A stretch of DNA of 64,000 nucleotides from Rhodospirillales bacterium (GTDB lineage: Bacteria > Pseudomonadota > Alphaproteobacteria > Acetobacterales > Acetobacteraceae), in the NCBI GenBank assembly GCA_025352565.1, contig JANXTF010000087.1, positions 1 through 64,000 of the forward strand, written 5' to 3'. Positions 24,206 to 51,651 of this stretch are shown one piece after another. The notes beneath the pieces were generated by a model. That model had not been told where the DNA came from, did no database searches, and saw only the letters and a program-made list of their open reading frames with translations. Numbering within the stretch: the stretch's first letter is position 1; the number at the start of each line of letters is the position of its first letter. A program made the position numbers and the translations under genes.

Positions 24206-25900
24206 TTACGCGTCGCCTCCCGAGTCTGTCACATCCGAAGCCTCAAGGGCAATCGCTCGCGGCCCACCCCTTAATGTTTTGTTCGTTATATGTTCGTCAA
24301 GGGCCGAATTGACGAACGAAGCAGAAACATCGATCGGCCCTGGCCCGTGGGCGAAGGGTTCCAGCGCGGTCGCAAGCTGCTCCAGCGTGTAGGGTTTGGC
24401 CAGGAACACCGCGCCGGCGCCGAGCCGGGCCATCTCCACCGCAAGCCCGCGGCCGCTGAATCCCGAGGTCAACACCACCGGCAGAGCGGGCGCGCCAAGC
24501 CGTTGCCGCACCGCGTGAGCGAGCACCCATCCGTTCATGTCGGGCAATGCGATGTCGGTCACCAGCACGGTCGGCCGGCCGGCACCGGGTCGCGAGGCGT
24601 CGGCCAAGGCCAGCGCCGCCTCGGCGGAAGCGGCCAGCAGCACACGCCAGCCGCCCCGCCGCAGCGTCAGATCCGCGAGCCTGGCCAGCGCAAGCTCGTC
24701 CTCGACCAGCAGCACCGTGCCGCGCCCGGCCCCAAAGGCGGGTGGCGGGGAGGATGCCGGGGCGGATGCCGGGGCCGCCAAAAGCGATTCGACAGCGCGG
24801 TCTGTCATGGCGGGCATGTTCAGGCATGGCAGATAAACCCGCATGCACGTCCCGCCGCCAGGCGCGCTGCGCACATCGAGAAACCCGCCGAACGCGCCGA
24901 CGATCTCGCGCACCGTCGAGAGCCCGAGCCCGTTGCCGCCCTGCTCGTGCCGCGTGGTGAAGAACGGTGCGAAGATGCGGGGCAGGATGTGGGCGGCAAT
25001 GCCGGTTCCGGTATCGGCCATCTCGGTCACCACATAGGGACCGGGCGGAATTCGGCCGCCAACCGCGTCCAGCGCCTGCTCCAGCACCCGCCTCTCGGTG
25101 CGGATCGACAGGGTGCCGCCATCCGGCATCGCGTCTCGCGCGTTGATCGCGAGATTCACCAGCACCTGGTCGAGCCGCGTCGGGTCGGCGCGCACCCGCG
25201 CGGCTCCGGCCCGAAGATCGAGCGCGAGACGGATCGCCCGGGGAAACAGCCGCCGCAACATGTCGGCGAGATCGGCGACGGCGGCATCCACGTCCAGCTC
25301 TCTCGGCGCTTCTTCCGCCGGGCGGCCGTACCCCAGCAGACGGCCGACAAGGGCCTTGCCCCGCATCGCGCTGCCGCGCAATTCGGCCAGCATATCCCGG
25401 CTCTCGGCATCGTCGCGGCACATGGCGCTCTGCTCCAGCATCCCGGCGGCGGCCAGCATGGCACCCACCAGATTGCTGAAATCATGCGCCACCGCCGCCG
25501 TGAGGTGGCCAAGGGAGTGGAGTTTCTGTCCATTCACGTCGCCCGACGCGGCTTGCCGCGCGGATGGCTGTCCCCGCAGGCGCAGCAGATGGCCGGTCAC
25601 CGCCCCGTCGGCATCGCGCATCGCGGTGGCTTCAAGGCCGATATCGAGACCGGTGCCATGGATCCGCAAACCGAGTACGGCGTCGGCTGCTTCGGCCAAC
25701 CCGGCCTTCAGCATGGCCCGGTACGGCAGGCCGACCAGCATGAGCGCCGGCCAGCCCTCGATCTGGTTCAGCGGCAACGCGGTCATCCGCGTCACGGCCT
25801 CGTTCGCGCGGACCACCCAGCCCTCGCCGTCCAGGATCAGCAGGCCGGTTTGCGTGTCCTGAAACAGCAGATCGGCCATCCCGTCCAACAAGGCGCTCAT
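24206..25900 (-). CDS. CckA-like hybrid histidine kinase without membrane segments
   Basis: A 564-residue hybrid kinase. A PAS domain spans about 5-110, the phospho-accepting His139 is in [12 protein letters not shown], the ATPase domain has [25 protein letters not shown] and [15 protein letters not shown], and a receiver domain spans about 394-510 with Asp449 in [11 protein letters not shown]. The AHDFxNL H-box, the place beside flhB and the nearby recA all resemble Caulobacter CckA, the start of the CckA-ChpT-CtrA relay. CckA of Caulobacter is longer and has N-terminal membrane helices, which are absent here. Its ATG overlaps the flhB stop. Confidence 0.8.
24281..24295 (-). promoter_or_regulatory. 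LexA (SOS) box and promoter of recA
   Basis: On the minus strand GAAC-N7-GAAC (plus strand GTTC at 24281 and 24292), the direct-repeat LexA box of alphaproteobacteria. A -35 TTGACG at 24300-24295 followed by a 17-base spacer and an ACATTA -10 hexamer puts the box inside the promoter spacer. It lies 78-92 bases upstream of the recA start and inside the last codons of the cckA-like gene, so recA can be induced independently of the flagellar operon. Confidence 0.8.
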
Positions 25901-27006
25901 GGCGCGGCCGCCGGCGCGCGGGCGCGCGGGCTCCCGACAGGCGCGCGGGCGGGCGGCCTCCCGACAGGCGCGCGGTCGCGCAACCGCCAGACATAGGCAA
26001 TGATCTCGGCCACCGCCTTGAAGTGCTCGGCGGGGATTTCCGCGTCGATCTCGAGCGGGAACAGCGCCCGCGCCAGCGGCGGATTGGCGACCAGCGGCAC
26101 GCGATGCTCGGCCGCCACCGCGCGGATGCGGGCGGCCACCTCGTCGGCACCCTTGGCCACCACGCGCGGGGCGCCCGAACCGCCTTTGTCATAAGCCAGC
26201 GCCACCGCGTAATGCGTCGGGTTGGTAATGACCACGGTGGCGTTCGGCACCGCCGCCATCATGCGCCGGCGCGCGCGCTGGCGGCGCAGCTGCTTGATCC
26301 GGGCCTTCACCCGCGGGTTGCCGTCGCTCTCCTTGTGCTCGTCACGCACATCCTGATGACTCATCCGCAGCGAGCGCGCGTGCTTGAGGCGGCCGAGGAC
26401 GATGTCGATCAGCGCGATCGCCGCCTGCCCCGCGAGCAGCCCGAACACGATCCGCAGCATGCCCCGAAACGTGCCGTCGAGCAGATGCGTCGCATCCCAC
26501 TGCAACGAGACGATCAGTTTCGGTGCAAGGCCCGCAAGCCCGCTCCACAGCAGGCTTGCCACCAGCATCAGTTTCAACACGGACTTGCCGGTCTCCAGCA
26601 GCACGCCCGGCCCGAACACGCGCTTGAACCCGCGCGCCGGATTGAGCCGCGCGAGATCGGGCATCGCAGCCTGCAAATGCAGCAGGAAGCCGGTTTGCAG
26701 CAGGGTTGCCGCGGCCGTGGCAACCGCGACCGCGAGCACGATCGGCGCCGCCGTCCAGGCCATCGCGCGCGCGGCTTCCAGGATCGCCTGATGCGGATCG
26801 GCCCGATGCGCCCGCGCCAGAAAGCCGGCCAGCGTCGCGCCCAGGTCACGCGCCTGCATCGGCGTCATCGTCACCAGCGCCAACGTGCCCGCGCCAAGCG
26901 CCGCCAGCATCGTGGCATCGCGCGATTGCGGCGCGCGGCCCTCGTCGCGGGCCGCCTGCAGACGCTTCTGCGATGCGGCGAGCGTGCGGTCCTCGGCATC
27001 CGCCAT
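25897..27006 (-). CDS. flhB: Flagellar export apparatus switch protein FlhB
   Basis: A 369-residue inner-membrane component of the flagellar type III export gate. Four hydrophobic segments in the first 215 residues are followed by the cytoplasmic domain with the autocleavage motif NPTH (residues 262-265) in VVITNPTHYAVAL. RVKARIKQLRRQRARRRMM is the usual linker. GGAGG ten bases upstream supports the ATG at 27006. The last 25 residues are a Pro/Arg/Ala tail made by a 27-bp repeat and run into the cckA-like start. It is downstream of fliR. Confidence 0.95.
   Translation of the reverse strand: MADAEDRTLAASQKRLQAARDEGRAPQSRDATMLAALGAGTLALVTMTPMQARDLGATLAGFLARAHRADPHQAILEAARAMAWTAAPIVLAVAVATAAATLLQTGFLLHLQAAMPDLARLNPARGFKRVFGPGVLLETGKSVLKLMLVASLLWSGLAGLAPKLIVSLQWDATHLLDGTFRGMLRIVFGLLAGQAAIALIDIVLGRLKHARSLRMSHQDVRDEHKESDGNPRVKARIKQLRRQRARRRMMAAVPNATVVITNPTHYAVALAYDKGGSGAPRVVAKGADEVAARIRAVAAEHRVPLVANPPLARALFPLEIDAEIPAEHFKAVAEIIAYVWRLRDRAPVGRPPARAPVGSPRARAPAAAP
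25914..25975. repeat. 27-bp tandem repeat at the end of flhB
   Basis: Two full units (25914-25940 and 25941-25967) and one partial unit; each full unit starts GCGCGCGGGC and ends CTCCCGACAG. They encode the C-terminal tail APVGRPPARAPVGSPRARAP of FlhB. The repeat ends 13 bases from the cckA-like start codon. Confidence 0.8.
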
Positions 27007-29277: not shown

Positions 29278-29553
29278 ATGAGGACGATGCCAGCAACCGA
29301 CCCGGATTCGGCGGCCCCGCTTACAGCGGTGCTGGCGCTCGCCGAACAGGTGGGCGGAACGTTGCGCGTGGCCGAGGGGCTGCTGCAAGGCCGCCGCATG
29401 GTGGATCTCGCGGGGCTCGACCGCCATGTCGGACGGCTATGCGCCAGCGCGCTCGACCTGCCCGTGGCACAAGGACGCGAGGCCCGCACCCGCCTCGTGC
29501 TTCTGCGGATGGAGCTGGACCGCGTGACGCGGCAGCTGGTCCCGCCCGCATGA
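29278..29553 (+). CDS. Small uncharacterised protein before fliO
   Basis: A 91-residue soluble, mostly helical protein (AVLALAEQVGGTLRVAEGLLQGRRMVDLAGLDRHVGRLCASAL...GREARTRLVLLRMELDRVTRQL) with no recognised motif. Its stop overlaps the fliO start (ATGA) and it begins the fliO-fliP unit, so a flagellar role such as a chaperone or assembly factor is likely by position. Its helical character and length are like FlgN/FliT-type chaperones, but I see no sequence proof. Confidence 0.6.
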   Translation: MRTMPATDPDSAAPLTAVLALAEQVGGTLRVAEGLLQGRRMVDLAGLDRHVGRLCASALDLPVAQGREARTRLVLLRMELDRVTRQLVPPA

Positions 29554-29816
29554 CGGCCGTCAACGTGCTGACGGCATTCGCCGCGCTGGGCGTGGTACTC
29601 GGCCTTATCTGGCTGGCCCAGGCGGTCGCGCGCCGCAACCCGCGCTTCCGCACCCACCCAGCCGCAGGCTCCAGGCTCGCGATCGCGGCCTCGCTCGCGC
29701 TCGACCCGCGGCGGCGCGTGCAGCTCGTGCGGTGCGACGGTCAACATTTCCTGCTGCTGACCGGCGGCCCGCACGACCTGATGCTCGGCTTCGTCCCCGG
29801 GCCCGACGCGCCATGA
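29550..29816 (+). CDS. fliO: Flagellar biosynthesis protein FliO
   Basis: An 88-residue single-pass membrane protein. An N-terminal helix (TAFAALGVVLGLIWLAQAV) is followed by the small cytoplasmic beta domain ASLALDPRRRVQLVRCDGQHFLLLTGGPHDLMLGF, the FliO pattern. FliO helps assemble FliP into the export gate. Its TGA overlaps the ATG of the repeat-derived mini-ORF. Confidence 0.85.
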   Translation: MTAVNVLTAFAALGVVLGLIWLAQAVARRNPRFRTHPAAGSRLAIAASLALDPRRRVQLVRCDGQHFLLLTGGPHDLMLGFVPGPDAP

Positions 29817-29881
29817 AGCGGCGCGCCATGAAGCGACGCGCCATGAAGCGACGCGCCATGAAGCAACGGGCACGGCCATGA
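29813..29881 (+). CDS. Repeat-derived 22-codon mini-ORF joining fliO and fliP
   Basis: Four 15-bp units (ATGAAGCGACGCGCC and variants) make an open frame for MKRRA repeats, ending QRARP. Its ATG overlaps the fliO stop as ATGA, and its TGA overlaps the fliP ATG as ATGA. Every unit carries an in-frame ATG. It may pass terminating ribosomes from fliO to fliP, or it may be only an expanded spacer. Whether the peptide accumulates is unknown. Confidence 0.5.
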   Translation: MKRRAMKRRAMKRRAMKQRARP

Positions 29882-32254: not shown

Positions 32255-35200
32255 TCAACGCGTGGCGAGTTTCCGCGGGGCCAGCGCGTCCAGCTGGGCG
32301 GGCAATTGGCGGGCGAGCGTGGCCTCCTGCCCCGCGCGCGCCAGATCCGCGACCGCCGTCACGGGACGCTGGGTGAGCACCGCGAACACGCGCGCGAGTT
32401 CCGGGACCGGGATGCGGTCACGGAACTGCCGCCCCAACTCGGCGAGCGTCGCCTCATCGCCCGCCTGCGCCGCGTCCGACGCCATCCGCAGCAGCGTCTT
32501 GCCCTGCGCGGCGTCGAGCGGTCCCGTGTCAGGCAAGGCCGCCAGGATCGGCGCCAGAGCCGCCATCGCGCCGGCCCAGTCCCGCGCCTGTTCCATCAAG
32601 GCCGCGCGCAGCTCGGACGCAGCGGGGCCGGTCAGCGGAGCCACGTCCGCGAGAGCCGCCGCGCGATCGTTCCGCGCCATGTGCGCGCGGGCCGCCGTGA
32701 GGCCGCGCGCGGTGCGCACCGCGACCGGGAGGTCGGGCGCATCGCTGTCCCGAAGGGCCGCCAGCGTGGCCGGCGCGTCCTCCTCGGACAGCAGCAAGGC
32801 GGCGAGGCGCGCGCCGAGTATCGCGCGCGACGTGCCCGGCACGGAGGCGGCCATCACCCGCCCCAGCAAGGCGGCGGCGCGACGCGGCAGATCGAGAGCA
32901 CTAAGCCGGTCGGCGAGCATTTCCGCCACCGGCTCCCCCGCGAACCCGGAGGGAAGCAGGTCGGCGTTGTCCTCCACCATCGACACGAATTCGAGCGGCG
33001 GCAGGACGGGCCGGGCATCCGGCGCGATCGCCCGGGTCAGCAGCTCCGTCATGCTCCCCCGCAATCGGGCCGTCTCGTCCGGCCAGAGGCGGGCGGTTTC
33101 CCGCAGCAGCGCAATGGCCGGCCGGGTCGCGCCGCCCTCGGCGCGCAGCGCGGCCGCGCGCTCGCGCAGCGCGATCTCGGTCGGATCGTCCCGCCAGGCA
33201 TAGAATAGACGTTCCAACGCATCGGCCGCCGCCGCCGGCCCCGTCAGTTGGCGCGCCAGACGGGTCTCGGCCGCGAGCCGGGCCGCGCGGAACCGCATCC
33301 GCCGATCGGCGCCGGCCGCCACGGCGTCGAGGCCCGCCAACGAGGCCCCGCTCGCGCCTGACAACGTGGGGCCTGACAACGTGGGGCCTGGCAGCGTGGG
33401 GCCAGGCAGCGTGGGGCCAGGCAGCATCGCGCGTGCCAGCGCCAGACGCGGGTTGCCCGGAAGGGCCTTGTCGAGTTGGCCGAAGGCGGCTGCCTGCCCG
33501 CCTTCGGCCAAAGTCTCGCCAACGAGCCCCAGAAGCCGATCGCGCAAAGGGGCGGGATAGGCGATCAACCGACCGATGCCGAATGCAAGGGCCGTGGCGG
33601 CGGCGGGCACGTCCCGCCCCAGCAACGCCGCCCGGACGCCGCGCCAGAACGCCACCTCGCCGTTCCCATCGAGAGATTGGGCCAGCAAGCCATCGCTTTC
33701 CGCCACCCGGCCGGCCAGCAGCGCCGCCATGGCGGCGGTCATGCGCAGCTCCGGGAGGTCCGAGGCCCGAGGGTCGTCACGCACCGCGGCCGCGACCGCC
33801 CCTTGCGCCTCCACCCCCATGCCGAGCGCCAGCAGCGAACGCGCGACGTCCAGCCGCTTTCCGGTCCGGGAGCGGGCGGGTGCCCCGGCCGCGCCTGCCA
33901 CCGCCGCCTGCATGCGCCGCAGCAGGACCTCCGGCGGGAACGCGGTCAACTCCGGGGGCCGCCCATCCGCGTCCGCCACGGCTTGATCGGCTGGAACGAA
34001 GCCATCCGATGTCGCCAAGGCGCCGCCAACCCCGGCGGAGAGCAGAAAGCCTTCCGGCACCGCGCGCATCCGCAGCGTGTCGAGGACGGGCTCCACGACC
34101 ACGCCGAGCCAGGTCGGCCAAAGGATGAACTCGGTCGAGCGCCGCGCGGTCGGCACCGCCGCACTGGCTTGCCGCAATGTGCCCACCAGCAGGATACCGC
34201 CGCCATTCGGATCTGGCACCGCGACCACGCGCCCGATGTCGCGCGCCGCCAGCATCAGACTCCCGCCGGCGAGGCGCGGCACGAAGCCGGGCGGCGACGC
34301 CGGACCCAGCGAAAGCTGCCAACCGGCCGCCTCGTGCCGCAGCACGAGGCCCGTGCCGGCGATGGCATCCAGCCGCAGCACGGTCGCCTCGGGCAGCAGC
34401 TGAACCGTGGCTCCGGCAAATTTCGCTCCCTCGCTGGAACGTGAAACCCCGTCATGCGAACCTGAAAAGTCGATCGGCCTCCGCTCGTCGAACACCACAT
34501 ACCAGGAGTCGCCGCGCTGAAACGCCGCCGCGCCGGCCTGGGCGGAGAACGGCAATGACAATGCGCGCCCCATGGACGTGGGAGCGAGGTCGGAAATCCC
34601 GGCCGGATGTTGGGAAGCTGGGATCTCGGCGGTCGAGGGGCGCGCGGGCGGCGTGGTTGCCCCGGCCGGCGATCCATGCGGCGGTGTCGCGGCGGCCGGC
34701 GCGGCAGGAAGGCTTTCCACGGAAATTTCTGGCGCCGGGACCACCGCCGTCGCCGCGATCGGCGGCAGGGCGGCCAAAGCCGGCCTTGCGTCCGGCGATT
34801 TGACCGAAGGCGCATTGACCGAAGGCGTATTGACCGGCGGCATATTGACCGGCGGCGCCTTGCCCGCGATCGGCACCGGCCGCATGGCGTCCAACAGATC
34901 CACGACCAGCCGATTTCCGAGCCGAGTCACCTTGAGTCGCGTGCCCTGCGTCACGATCAAATCCATGCCGTCCGGCATGATCGTGGTCCGTCGGAGATTG
35001 CGCGCCGTGACCGCGCCTGGCTCGATGGCGTCCCATGTCAGTTTATCTCCGGCGAAGCGGATCGCAATTCGGTCGCCGTCCTGCGACGCCGTCCCGGTCT
35101 GACCGTCGGGCATATCGAACACCACGCGTCCGAAACCCGGATGCGCGCCAACCCGCACGCTGGTCCCCGCCGCGTCCGCGCGGCCCGCGATCGCGAACAC

Positions 35201-35308
35201 GGCAAGCAGCGCAAGCCCGGCAACCCAGGAAGCCCAGGAAACCCCGGAAACCCCGGAAACCCCTGAAACACGGGCAACAACATGGCTTCGCATCGCGGGC
35301 CGCTTCAT
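32255..35308 (-). CDS. Large exported AMIN-domain/helical-repeat protein of the flagellar cluster
   Basis: A 1017-residue protein. After a signal region (VAGLALLAVFAIAGRADA) the N-terminus has an AMIN-like beta domain (VRVGAHPGFGRVVFDMPDGQTG, NRLVVDLLDA). It then has a long Pro/Ala linker, a second beta-rich part, and from about residue 470 an alpha-helical region that looks like TPR repeats. Three tandem-repeat tracts lie inside. It is last in the fliL-fliM-DUF6468-motE-cheY run, so a role in flagellar placement, motor or envelope anchoring is plausible but unproven. The start is uncertain (ATG at 35293 is possible). Confidence 0.72.
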   Translation of the reverse strand: MKRPAMRSHVVARVSGVSGVSGVSWASWVAGLALLAVFAIAGRADAAGTSVRVGAHPGFGRVVFDMPDGQTGTASQDGDRIAIRFAGDKLTWDAIEPGAVTARNLRRTTIMPDGMDLIVTQGTRLKVTRLGNRLVVDLLDAMRPVPIAGKAPPVNMPPVNTPSVNAPSVKSPDARPALAALPPIAATAVVPAPEISVESLPAAPAAATPPHGSPAGATTPPARPSTAEIPASQHPAGISDLAPTSMGRALSLPFSAQAGAAAFQRGDSWYVVFDERRPIDFSGSHDGVSRSSEGAKFAGATVQLLPEATVLRLDAIAGTGLVLRHEAAGWQLSLGPASPPGFVPRLAGGSLMLAARDIGRVVAVPDPNGGGILLVGTLRQASAAVPTARRSTEFILWPTWLGVVVEPVLDTLRMRAVPEGFLLSAGVGGALATSDGFVPADQAVADADGRPPELTAFPPEVLLRRMQAAVAGAAGAPARSRTGKRLDVARSLLALGMGVEAQGAVAAAVRDDPRASDLPELRMTAAMAALLAGRVAESDGLLAQSLDGNGEVAFWRGVRAALLGRDVPAAATALAFGIGRLIAYPAPLRDRLLGLVGETLAEGGQAAAFGQLDKALPGNPRLALARAMLPGPTLPGPTLPGPTLSGPTLSGASGASLAGLDAVAAGADRRMRFRAARLAAETRLARQLTGPAAAADALERLFYAWRDDPTEIALRERAAALRAEGGATRPAIALLRETARLWPDETARLRGSMTELLTRAIAPDARPVLPPLEFVSMVEDNADLLPSGFAGEPVAEMLADRLSALDLPRRAAALLGRVMAASVPGTSRAILGARLAALLLSEEDAPATLAALRDSDAPDLPVAVRTARGLTAARAHMARNDRAAALADVAPLTGPAASELRAALMEQARDWAGAMAALAPILAALPDTGPLDAAQGKTLLRMASDAAQAGDEATLAELGRQFRDRIPVPELARVFAVLTQRPVTAVADLARAGQEATLARQLPAQLDALAPRKLATR
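33356..33429. repeat. 15-bp tandem repeat in the AMIN-domain gene
   Basis: Four full units (GCCTGACAACGTGGG drifting to GCCAGGCAGCGTGGG) and a partial fifth. On the coding strand they give PGPTLPGPTLPGPTLSGPTLSG between helical repeats. The frame is kept. Confidence 0.85.
34800..34859. repeat. 15-bp tandem repeat in the linker of the AMIN-domain gene
   Basis: Four units of TTGACCGAAGGCGCA-like sequence drifting to TTGACCGGCGGCGCC. They encode PPVNMPPVNTPSVNAPSVK in the Pro-rich linker after the AMIN-like domain. Confidence 0.85.
35228..35272. repeat. 9-bp tandem repeat in the signal region of the AMIN-domain gene
   Basis: Five units of GGAAACCCC, the first and last degenerate, encoding VSGVSGVSGVS just before the hydrophobic part of the signal peptide. 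Confidence 0.85.
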
Positions 35309-50793: not shown

Positions 50794-51651
50794 CTAGTCC
50801 TGCGTGTCGTGATGCTCTGTCGCGGCATCATCCACTTCGTGCATGACGGCCGTCTCGGGCGCGGGAATGCTCGCCACAGCGATCTTGCGCGGACGGCGCG
50901 TGACCTTCACTGCCGCAGGCGCCTTCTCGCTTTTGGCGACCCGCCGCTTCGGCGCGACAGGCTTCACGGCGCGCACGGCCTTGGCGGCGCCGCGCGTGGC
51001 GGCGGCACGCGCGGGCGTACGCGTCGCCTTCGGCGCGGTCCGCGTCACAGTCGCGGTTTTACGGGTCGCGATCTTGCGCATGGCGTTGGGAGCCGCCTTC
51101 GGCGCCGCGCGCTTGGTCGCCACGGGCTTGCGGCCCACGGCCTTGGCGGCTGTCTTGCGGGCGGGTGTGCGCGCGACGGACGACGCCGATTTACGCGCTG
51201 TGGTCGCCTTGCCGCGCGCCGTGGTGGCGCGGGTCGAGGTCTTGCGGGCCGGCGCCTTGGTCGCGGCAGCGGCGCGCTTTGGGGCGAGGGCCTTGCGCGC
51301 GGTCTTGGCGGCGGTCGCACGCACCGGCTTCCTTGCGGTCGCCTTGGCGGTGCGCGTGGTCGCCTTGGCACGCGTGGTCTTGGCCGGCGCCTTCGCGCGG
51401 GTCGCGGCCTTCGCGGTCGCGCGCACCGGCTTCTTGGCGACGGCTTTCCGTGCAACGGCCTTCTTCGCCGCCGCCTTCTTTACCGGCGCCTTCTTCACCG
51501 ACGCTTTCTTCACCGGCGCCTGCTTCACCGGCGCCTTCACGGCCTTGGCCGGCCCGCGCGTGGCGCGGGCGGCTGGCTTGGCGGTCTTTCGCGCATTCGC
51601 GCGCATCGCCATCGGCTGTGCGCGTTCGGTTTCGATGGTATCCTGGCTCAC
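50794..51651 (-). CDS. Histone H1-like Lys/Ala/Pro-rich DNA-binding protein
   Basis: A 285-residue, very basic protein made of AKKA/APVKK/RKTA/TRKTA repeats with an acidic end (EVDDAATEHHDTQD). It is similar in composition to histone H1-like nucleoid proteins of bacteria (for example BpH1/HctB-type). A GTG start is chosen because AAGGAG is nine bases upstream; an ATG 19 residues in is an alternative. Part of the body is a 15-bp repeat (APVKKA units). It probably coats DNA and may act in nucleoid compaction. Confidence 0.75.
   Translation of the reverse strand: MSQDTIETERAQPMAMRANARKTAKPAARATRGPAKAVKAPVKQAPVKKASVKKAPVKKAAAKKAVARKAVAKKPVRATAKAATRAKAPAKTTRAKATTRTAKATARKPVRATAAKTARKALAPKRAAAATKAPARKTSTRATTARGKATTARKSASSVARTPARKTAAKAVGRKPVATKRAAPKAAPNAMRKIATRKTATVTRTAPKATRTPARAAATRGAAKAVRAVKPVAPKRRVAKSEKAPAAVKVTRRPRKIAVASIPAPETAVMHEVDDAATEHHDTQD

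Follow-up and report, generated by a model that had tools for sequence, protein, structure and literature searches.

A tandemly duplicated stop–start overlap between fliO and fliP is a candidate translational relay in a Rhodospirillales genome

In repeat-based phase variation, as at contingency loci, a tandem repeat near a start codon switches the reading frame. Termination–reinitiation coupling through ATGA overlaps is well described in the excerpts drawn on here (PMC10666635, PMC6728339), and one of them presents the −4 overlap as the commonest arrangement of adjacent genes and the route of post-termination ribosomes to the next start as disputed (PMC10666635). The same excerpt gives a loss of 80–100% of reinitiation at 38 nt for native E. 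coli gene pairs, and quotes other studies with reinitiation over 73 to 850 nt (PMC10666635). Also described are short ORFs that pass ribosomes on to a coupled gene, for example the ORF before iraD (excerpt of PMC5574718). A review excerpt cites mycobacterial MIRUs as repeats carrying an ORF that is coupled at −4 (PMC12548453), with further background in a passage of PMC3635867. According to such excerpts, MIRUs stand between genes in several copies of variable number and occupy 41 scattered places in one genome, being seemingly mobile (PMC12548453, PMC2734929, PMC4213456); their units measure 40–100 bp (PMC2734929), and three 77-bp copies lie between senX3 and regX3 in H37Rv (PMC4213456).

In this study, the junction of fliO and fliP was analysed in the window, which here denotes the whole stretch of 64,000 nucleotides from a Rhodospirillales bacterium (genome G000). 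A mini-ORF made of a 15-bp tandem repeat lies between the two genes. Both of its ends are −4 overlaps, the 4-nt stop/start arrangement by which ATGA-coupled gene pairs are recognised, but fliO–fliP has two overlaps and a repeat-made ORF in place of one overlap. Like the coupled short upstream ORFs, it is short and its stop codon overlaps the start of the following gene, to which it is predicted to be coupled; unlike the iraD type, it sits between two genes and overlaps the stop of the preceding one. The tandem repeat is close to a start codon, as in contingency loci, whereas its 15-bp unit is a multiple of 3 and gain or loss of units keeps the closing frame. The locus shares with MIRUs a repeat ORF at −4 to the following gene, the mini-ORF stop overlapping the fliP ATG with predicted coupling. 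However, its 15-bp unit falls outside the size range excerpted for MIRUs and was made locally from the junction, and a search of the 4.5-Mb genome with an 18-base pattern, in which the unit is followed by the next ATG with one ambiguous base, gave three matches, all at the fliO–fliP locus. By analogy, the array would resemble a MIRU in its working, yet it is not a MIRU, being short, local and junction-made. The original prediction, made from the letters of the window, held that a translational relay built from a tandem repeat was not a feature known to be described. This stands in part: among the matches listed from open-access literature, none described tandem repeats built from stop–start overlaps, or their frame bias, but MIRUs, as far as the excerpts go, are a partial precedent.

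The features of the junction are collected in Table 1. Tandem Repeats Finder detected the array with a period of 15, 94% matches and a score of 116, and its first bases lie within fliO, 9 bp upstream of the start assigned in the original prediction. That prediction had reported a 15-bp unit occurring four times and a 22-codon frame with an ATGA overlap at each end. Both were borne out: the former by the 4.3 copies detected and by unit starts at 29813 (1 mismatch to the predicted unit), 29828 and 29843 (both exact) and 29858 (3 mismatches), and the latter, with the coordinates assigned to it, by direct reading. The ATGs at these four positions share one common frame, and the ATG-to-ATG spacings along the array to fliP are 15, 15, 15 and 20 nt. 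The final unit departs from the others at several bases, besides its length. In the fliO frame, the units of the window read DAP*, GAP*, DAP* and DAP*, and in the mini-ORF frame they read MKRRA; since a unit reads as the end of fliO in one frame and as MKRRA in another, every unit is a copy of the stop–start overlap. Counted by eye, 12 of the first 15 bases of fliP are identical to those of the first unit. FliO and FliP both exceed the Pfam thresholds; FliO scored under the cut-off of NCBIfam TIGR03500 (37.1 vs 55.25 bits), and the N-terminus of FliP looks like a signal peptide. A 113-aa ORF across the array on the opposite strand had no Pfam match (112 residues scanned) and was set aside as mechanical.

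Table 1. Features at the fliO–fliP junction, in positions of the window
Feature	Coordinates	Strand	Basis or remark
91-aa ORF	29278..29553	+	No Pfam match; ATGA overlap with fliO at 29550–29553
fliO, 88 aa	29550..29816	+	Pfam PF04347, 26.2 bits (cut-off 22)
15-bp tandem array CGACGCGCCATGAAG, 4.3 copies	29804..29868	+	fliO-end/ATGA/fliP-start junction in every unit
First ATGA: fliO stop (TGA 29814–29816) over mini-ORF start	29813..29816	+	
Mini-ORF, 22 codons, MKRRAMKRRAMKRRAMKQRARP*, proposed relay	29813..29881	+	Direct reading
Final diverged 20-nt unit	29858..29877	+	Its length takes the mini-ORF out of frame with fliP, to close on the fliP ATGA
Second ATGA: mini-ORF stop (TGA 29879–29881) over fliP ATG (29878)	29878..29881	+	
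fliP, 247 aa	29878..30621	+	Pfam PF00813, 250.6 bits; TIGR01103, 271.6 bits

A survey of 170 fliP loci comprised the window, its congener and sets of 80, 28 and 60, mostly from Acetobacteraceae and some from Rhodospirillales or other groups. FliO was recognised upstream of fliP in 151 of the 170 loci, using a profile made from the same loci, and 123 distinct junctions remained after identical sequences were collapsed; the 19 loci without a FliO match fall outside these 123. Two loci without FliO (L006 and L009) have an ORF, similar by eye to the 91-aa ORF, that ends directly on fliP. Junctions were classed by the in-frame fliP start closest to the fliO stop; this FliO-anchored classifier was used instead of an early one that allowed CTG starts and any upstream ORF and did not single out the window. 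The distinct junctions were at −4 in 115 cases and at −1 in six, with one at +14 (L085, whose fliP start is uncertain) and the window at +61, so that the overlap is kept as −4 or −1 in 121 of 123. In the single-copy relative L076, 14 of 15 bases agree with the repeat unit; FliO ends in DAP* there and FliP starts with MKR. Judged from these sequences, the array consists of tandem duplicates of the ancestral fliO-stop/fliP-start junction. The units of the array are too alike to show selection on the MKRRA peptide. The best tandem score over the 123 junctions was 41, in the window, and the next was 18. Comparison with relatives, proposed earlier as a check on the relay, went against conservation: none of the other 122 distinct junctions with a recognised FliO holds a comparable array. 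The sole congener compared (G001) has a plain ATGA at fliO–fliP without an array, and the array itself is therefore not conserved.

This restriction to a single junction is also what neutral slippage would give, that is, a chance duplication with the mini-ORF as a by-product free of function or constraint and with fliP started independently or by short scanning. The many other tandem arrays in the window and the ordinary RNA folding around the junction (z −1.15; 32 of 200 shuffles folded equally well) agree with such an origin. As a tandem array, the fliO–fliP array is beyond chance, because resampling the window 30 times with an order-3 Markov model gave top tandem scores of 46 to 93; tandem arrays as such are not rare in the window, where two more reach 117 and 120. 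An independent start of fliP is less easily reconciled with the upstream sequence, in which no Shine–Dalgarno-like site was found ahead of fliP. The scan used the Shine–Dalgarno reference motif AGGAGG; its best upstream match covered 3 of 6 bases, and a Shine–Dalgarno-driven start of fliP was rejected. Under neutral slippage, the chance that the mini-ORF frame closes exactly on the fliP ATGA would be one in three, which is weak evidence when taken alone.

We consider it probable that the array arose by duplication of the junction and that fliP has been kept coupled by a termination–reinitiation relay via the mini-ORF. An ancestral 4-nt overlap of the fliO stop and the fliP start would have been duplicated in tandem, leaving in every copy the end of fliO (DAP*) in one frame and the start of fliP (MKR) in another. 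Expansion by clean 15-bp steps would keep the first ATG and fliP in a single frame, merely lengthening FliP. The irregular last copy, 20 instead of 15 nt, would instead put array and fliP out of phase by 2 mod 3: with this last spacing fliP lies 65 nt beyond the first ATGA, and the ORF opened by the first ATG therefore ends, after 22 codons, on the TGA overlapping the fliP ATG. Ribosomes finishing fliO would reinitiate at 29813 and make MKRRA repeats up to the stop at 29879, then restart at 29878, and fliP would stay coupled despite the 61 nt between the fliO stop and the fliP start. The suggestion that copy number could change without breaking the relay is true by arithmetic while the 20-nt last spacing stays. 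The loss of reinitiation at 38 nt in E. coli pairs speaks for the relay, as coupling would require proximity; given the longer reinitiation distances in the quoted studies, the mini-ORF may be unnecessary. Most likely, the array holds fliP coupled to fliO by a two-step relay and persists because it does little harm.

Recurrence was analysed across the family, in as many as 298 genomes, by scanning for sets of four ATGAs spaced at a constant period. Arrays were present in 54 of 298 genomes at period 15 and, among 297 genomes each, in 43 at period 14, 16 at period 16 (several being simple 8-bp repeats), 14 at period 17 and 3 at period 13. Each array was then tested by coding frame for whether it lay between a same-strand gene pair and whether a restarting ribosome would reach the downstream gene (connected), with identical sequences collapsed; four arrays were outside the tested set (G201:C87 and G063:C12 at period 15; G222:C58 and G190:C152 at period 14). 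Among the matches listed, period 14 gave 27 non-simple junctions in 71 arrays, 24 of them connected through chains of five-codon ORFs. Period 17 gave 13 junctions in 19 arrays, with 11 connected, mostly through six-codon ORF chains, and period 15 gave 16 junctions in 72 arrays, with 11 connected. Both junctions found in the 22 period-16 arrays were connected via every second unit, as was one further array flagged as simple, and the coding-frame test found no junction in the 3 arrays of period 13. The unconnected junctions were L271, L309 and L326 (period 14), L120, L138, L228, L234 and L238 (period 15), and L338 and L339 (period 17). Three arrays (L118, L119 and L131) were among the 21 of 71 that passed a first filter, but by eye their gene is in the third frame or absent, and they are not junctions by coding frame. 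Periods 14 and 17 connect automatically once the end ATGAs are the genes' own, so the connected fraction checks the anatomy and not selection.

Nine of the 11 connected period-15 junctions are in-frame extensions, in which the downstream protein is lengthened by Mxxxx pentapeptides (L142, which encodes a 2Fe-2S/FAD protein by Pfam, L205, L210, L213, L214, L219, L222, L225 and L240), and two are relays, namely the window and L229. The predominance of extensions, for example at L142, L205, L213, L222 and L240, is in line with a sequencing or assembly error, by which the last unit would truly have one base more or fewer and the FliP signal peptide would carry an in-frame MKRRA-repeat extension. 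By arithmetic, inserting one base into the last unit would bring the two frames together, and the phase of the mini-ORF depends on the base accuracy of a 164-contig assembly. However, the last unit differs at several bases beyond its length, and two 15-bp arrays in genome G014 close out of frame likewise; we give an error of this kind only a very slight chance. One of the two, L229, lies between two ABC permease genes (Pfam) and has a 19-codon mini-ORF closing on the ATGA of the next gene. The other, L230, recognised by direct reading and Pfam outside the coding-frame count, has a 34-codon mini-ORF closing on the next ATGA; its flanks, a glycosyltransferase 28 and a Mur ligase by Pfam, are read as murG–murC. 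In the 15-bp arrays L138, L226 and L235, the short frame after the ORF reaches no gene. Genome G014 (7.7 Mb, 96% complete, 7% contamination) has many ATGA arrays at junctions (L229, L230, L318, L319, L322, L323, L343, L353 and L357).

The genes flanking the 14- and 17-bp chains are varied. By Pfam, L272 lies between FtsW-type and glycosyltransferase 28 genes and L264 between two FAD oxidoreductases; both flanking genes contain a known domain at L265 and L345, and the downstream gene only at L256. At L256 (G118:C44), a 14-bp chain reading MKRRP*, MKRRA*, MKRRA* precedes a HAD-type hydrolase that starts MKRRA; the peptide unit is that of fliO–fliP, though the gene is unrelated. The genome of the window has three further chains, with flanks assigned by Pfam: L315 (14 bp; G000:C163) between peptidase M20 and an ABC ATPase, L341 (17 bp; G000:C67) between AzlD and an MFS protein, and L348 (17 bp; G000:C144) between CcmE and CcmF. 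In the congener, the ccmE–ccmF junction is a plain ATGA, and the azlD–MFS junction is read as a GTGA overlap. At other junctions, the number of units in connected arrays ranges from 4 to 7. Such variation would suit a copy-number dial, by which the fliO:fliP ratio might be tuned as the original prediction suggested and in which ribosomes are lost at each hop and the array length tunes the protein ratio and varies between strains; the identical or nearly identical units are likely slippage-prone, which would also suit it. At fliO–fliP, however, copy number alters the length of one mini-ORF and leaves the number of hops constant. We therefore regard a dial as quite improbable, and the 14- and 17-bp chains are a better place to seek one; in the ccmE–ccmF chain, hops do vary with copy number.

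Without any constraint on expansion, no excess of periods 14 and 17 over 13 and 16 would be expected. The ORF-length counts exclude simple repeats and units containing two ATGAs, with identical sequences collapsed. Among the matches listed, arrays flanked on both sides by an ORF of 100 codons or longer numbered 42 for periods 14 and 17 and 6 for periods 13 and 16 (binomial p = 1e-7), where ORF length is a rough guide to genes in GC-rich DNA and several of the counted arrays come from one genome, G014. The corresponding counts, again among the matches listed, were 14 vs 3 with a long ORF downstream only, 6 vs 1 upstream only, 7 vs 4 on neither side and 5 vs 0 at a contig end. The one-sided classes are biased too, reflecting either missed junctions or a bias unrelated to junctions. 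Junctions by coding frame numbered 40 vs 2 and a 150-codon ORF test gave 33 vs 5, both among the matches listed. The 150-codon classifier called the window not connected after picking a spurious 534-codon ORF, a call set aside because coding frame and direct reading connect it. The reversed-pattern control gave no excess, with 3 and 0 genomes (periods 14 and 17) vs 3 and 5 (13 and 16). A Fisher test of both-ORF against neither-ORF arrays, among the matches listed, gave p = 0.079, a value limited by the small background sample. In a class-wide sample, period-14 arrays occurred in 11 of 195 genomes, one being the window's own, and 3 of 15 non-simple ones had long ORFs on both sides, one of these in the window's genome; the pattern thus extends beyond the family and is rarer in that sample.

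The preference of arrays flanked by long ORFs for relay-keeping periods counts against neutral slippage, which we judge unlikely. The proposal of a relay made from a tandem repeat gained from the similar arrays at other junctions and from the excess of the relay-closing periods 14 and 17. The array, its recurrence and the frame counts together favour a termination–reinitiation relay that would be under frame selection. A broader reading is held tentatively, as a possibility rather than an expectation: duplication of stop–start overlaps may be a general and ongoing process in these bacteria, building chains of up to five tiny ORFs between operon genes in which one and the same ribosome would stop and restart several times. 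The excess of 2 mod 3 over 1 mod 3 periods would then be a genome-wide mark of selection on such repeated restarts, and the number of hops could set the protein ratio.

If ribosomes traverse these arrays, they would constitute a natural experiment on the minimal length of an ORF and on the number of successive stop–restarts. Public genomes alone suffice to test the bias between periods 13/16 and 14/17, and the arrays can serve directly as reporter constructs. They also carry a warning for annotation: where an array is present, coupled genes seem to be separated by a gap or to have an N-terminal extension, and in-frame Mxxxx N-termini at 15-bp arrays may be mis-annotated.

Further tandem arrays in the window, with units of 9, 15, 27 or 30 bp, are located at 33356–33441, 34800–34866, 35216–35278 and 51458–51538, the first three inside a minus-strand ORF of 1017 codons. 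On the minus strand, flhB (PF01312) and the following ORF, sensor-kinase-like by eye, share a 4-nt overlap at 25897–25900, and the end of flhB contains a 27-bp tandem repeat (25913–25981, score 117) immediately ahead of this overlap.
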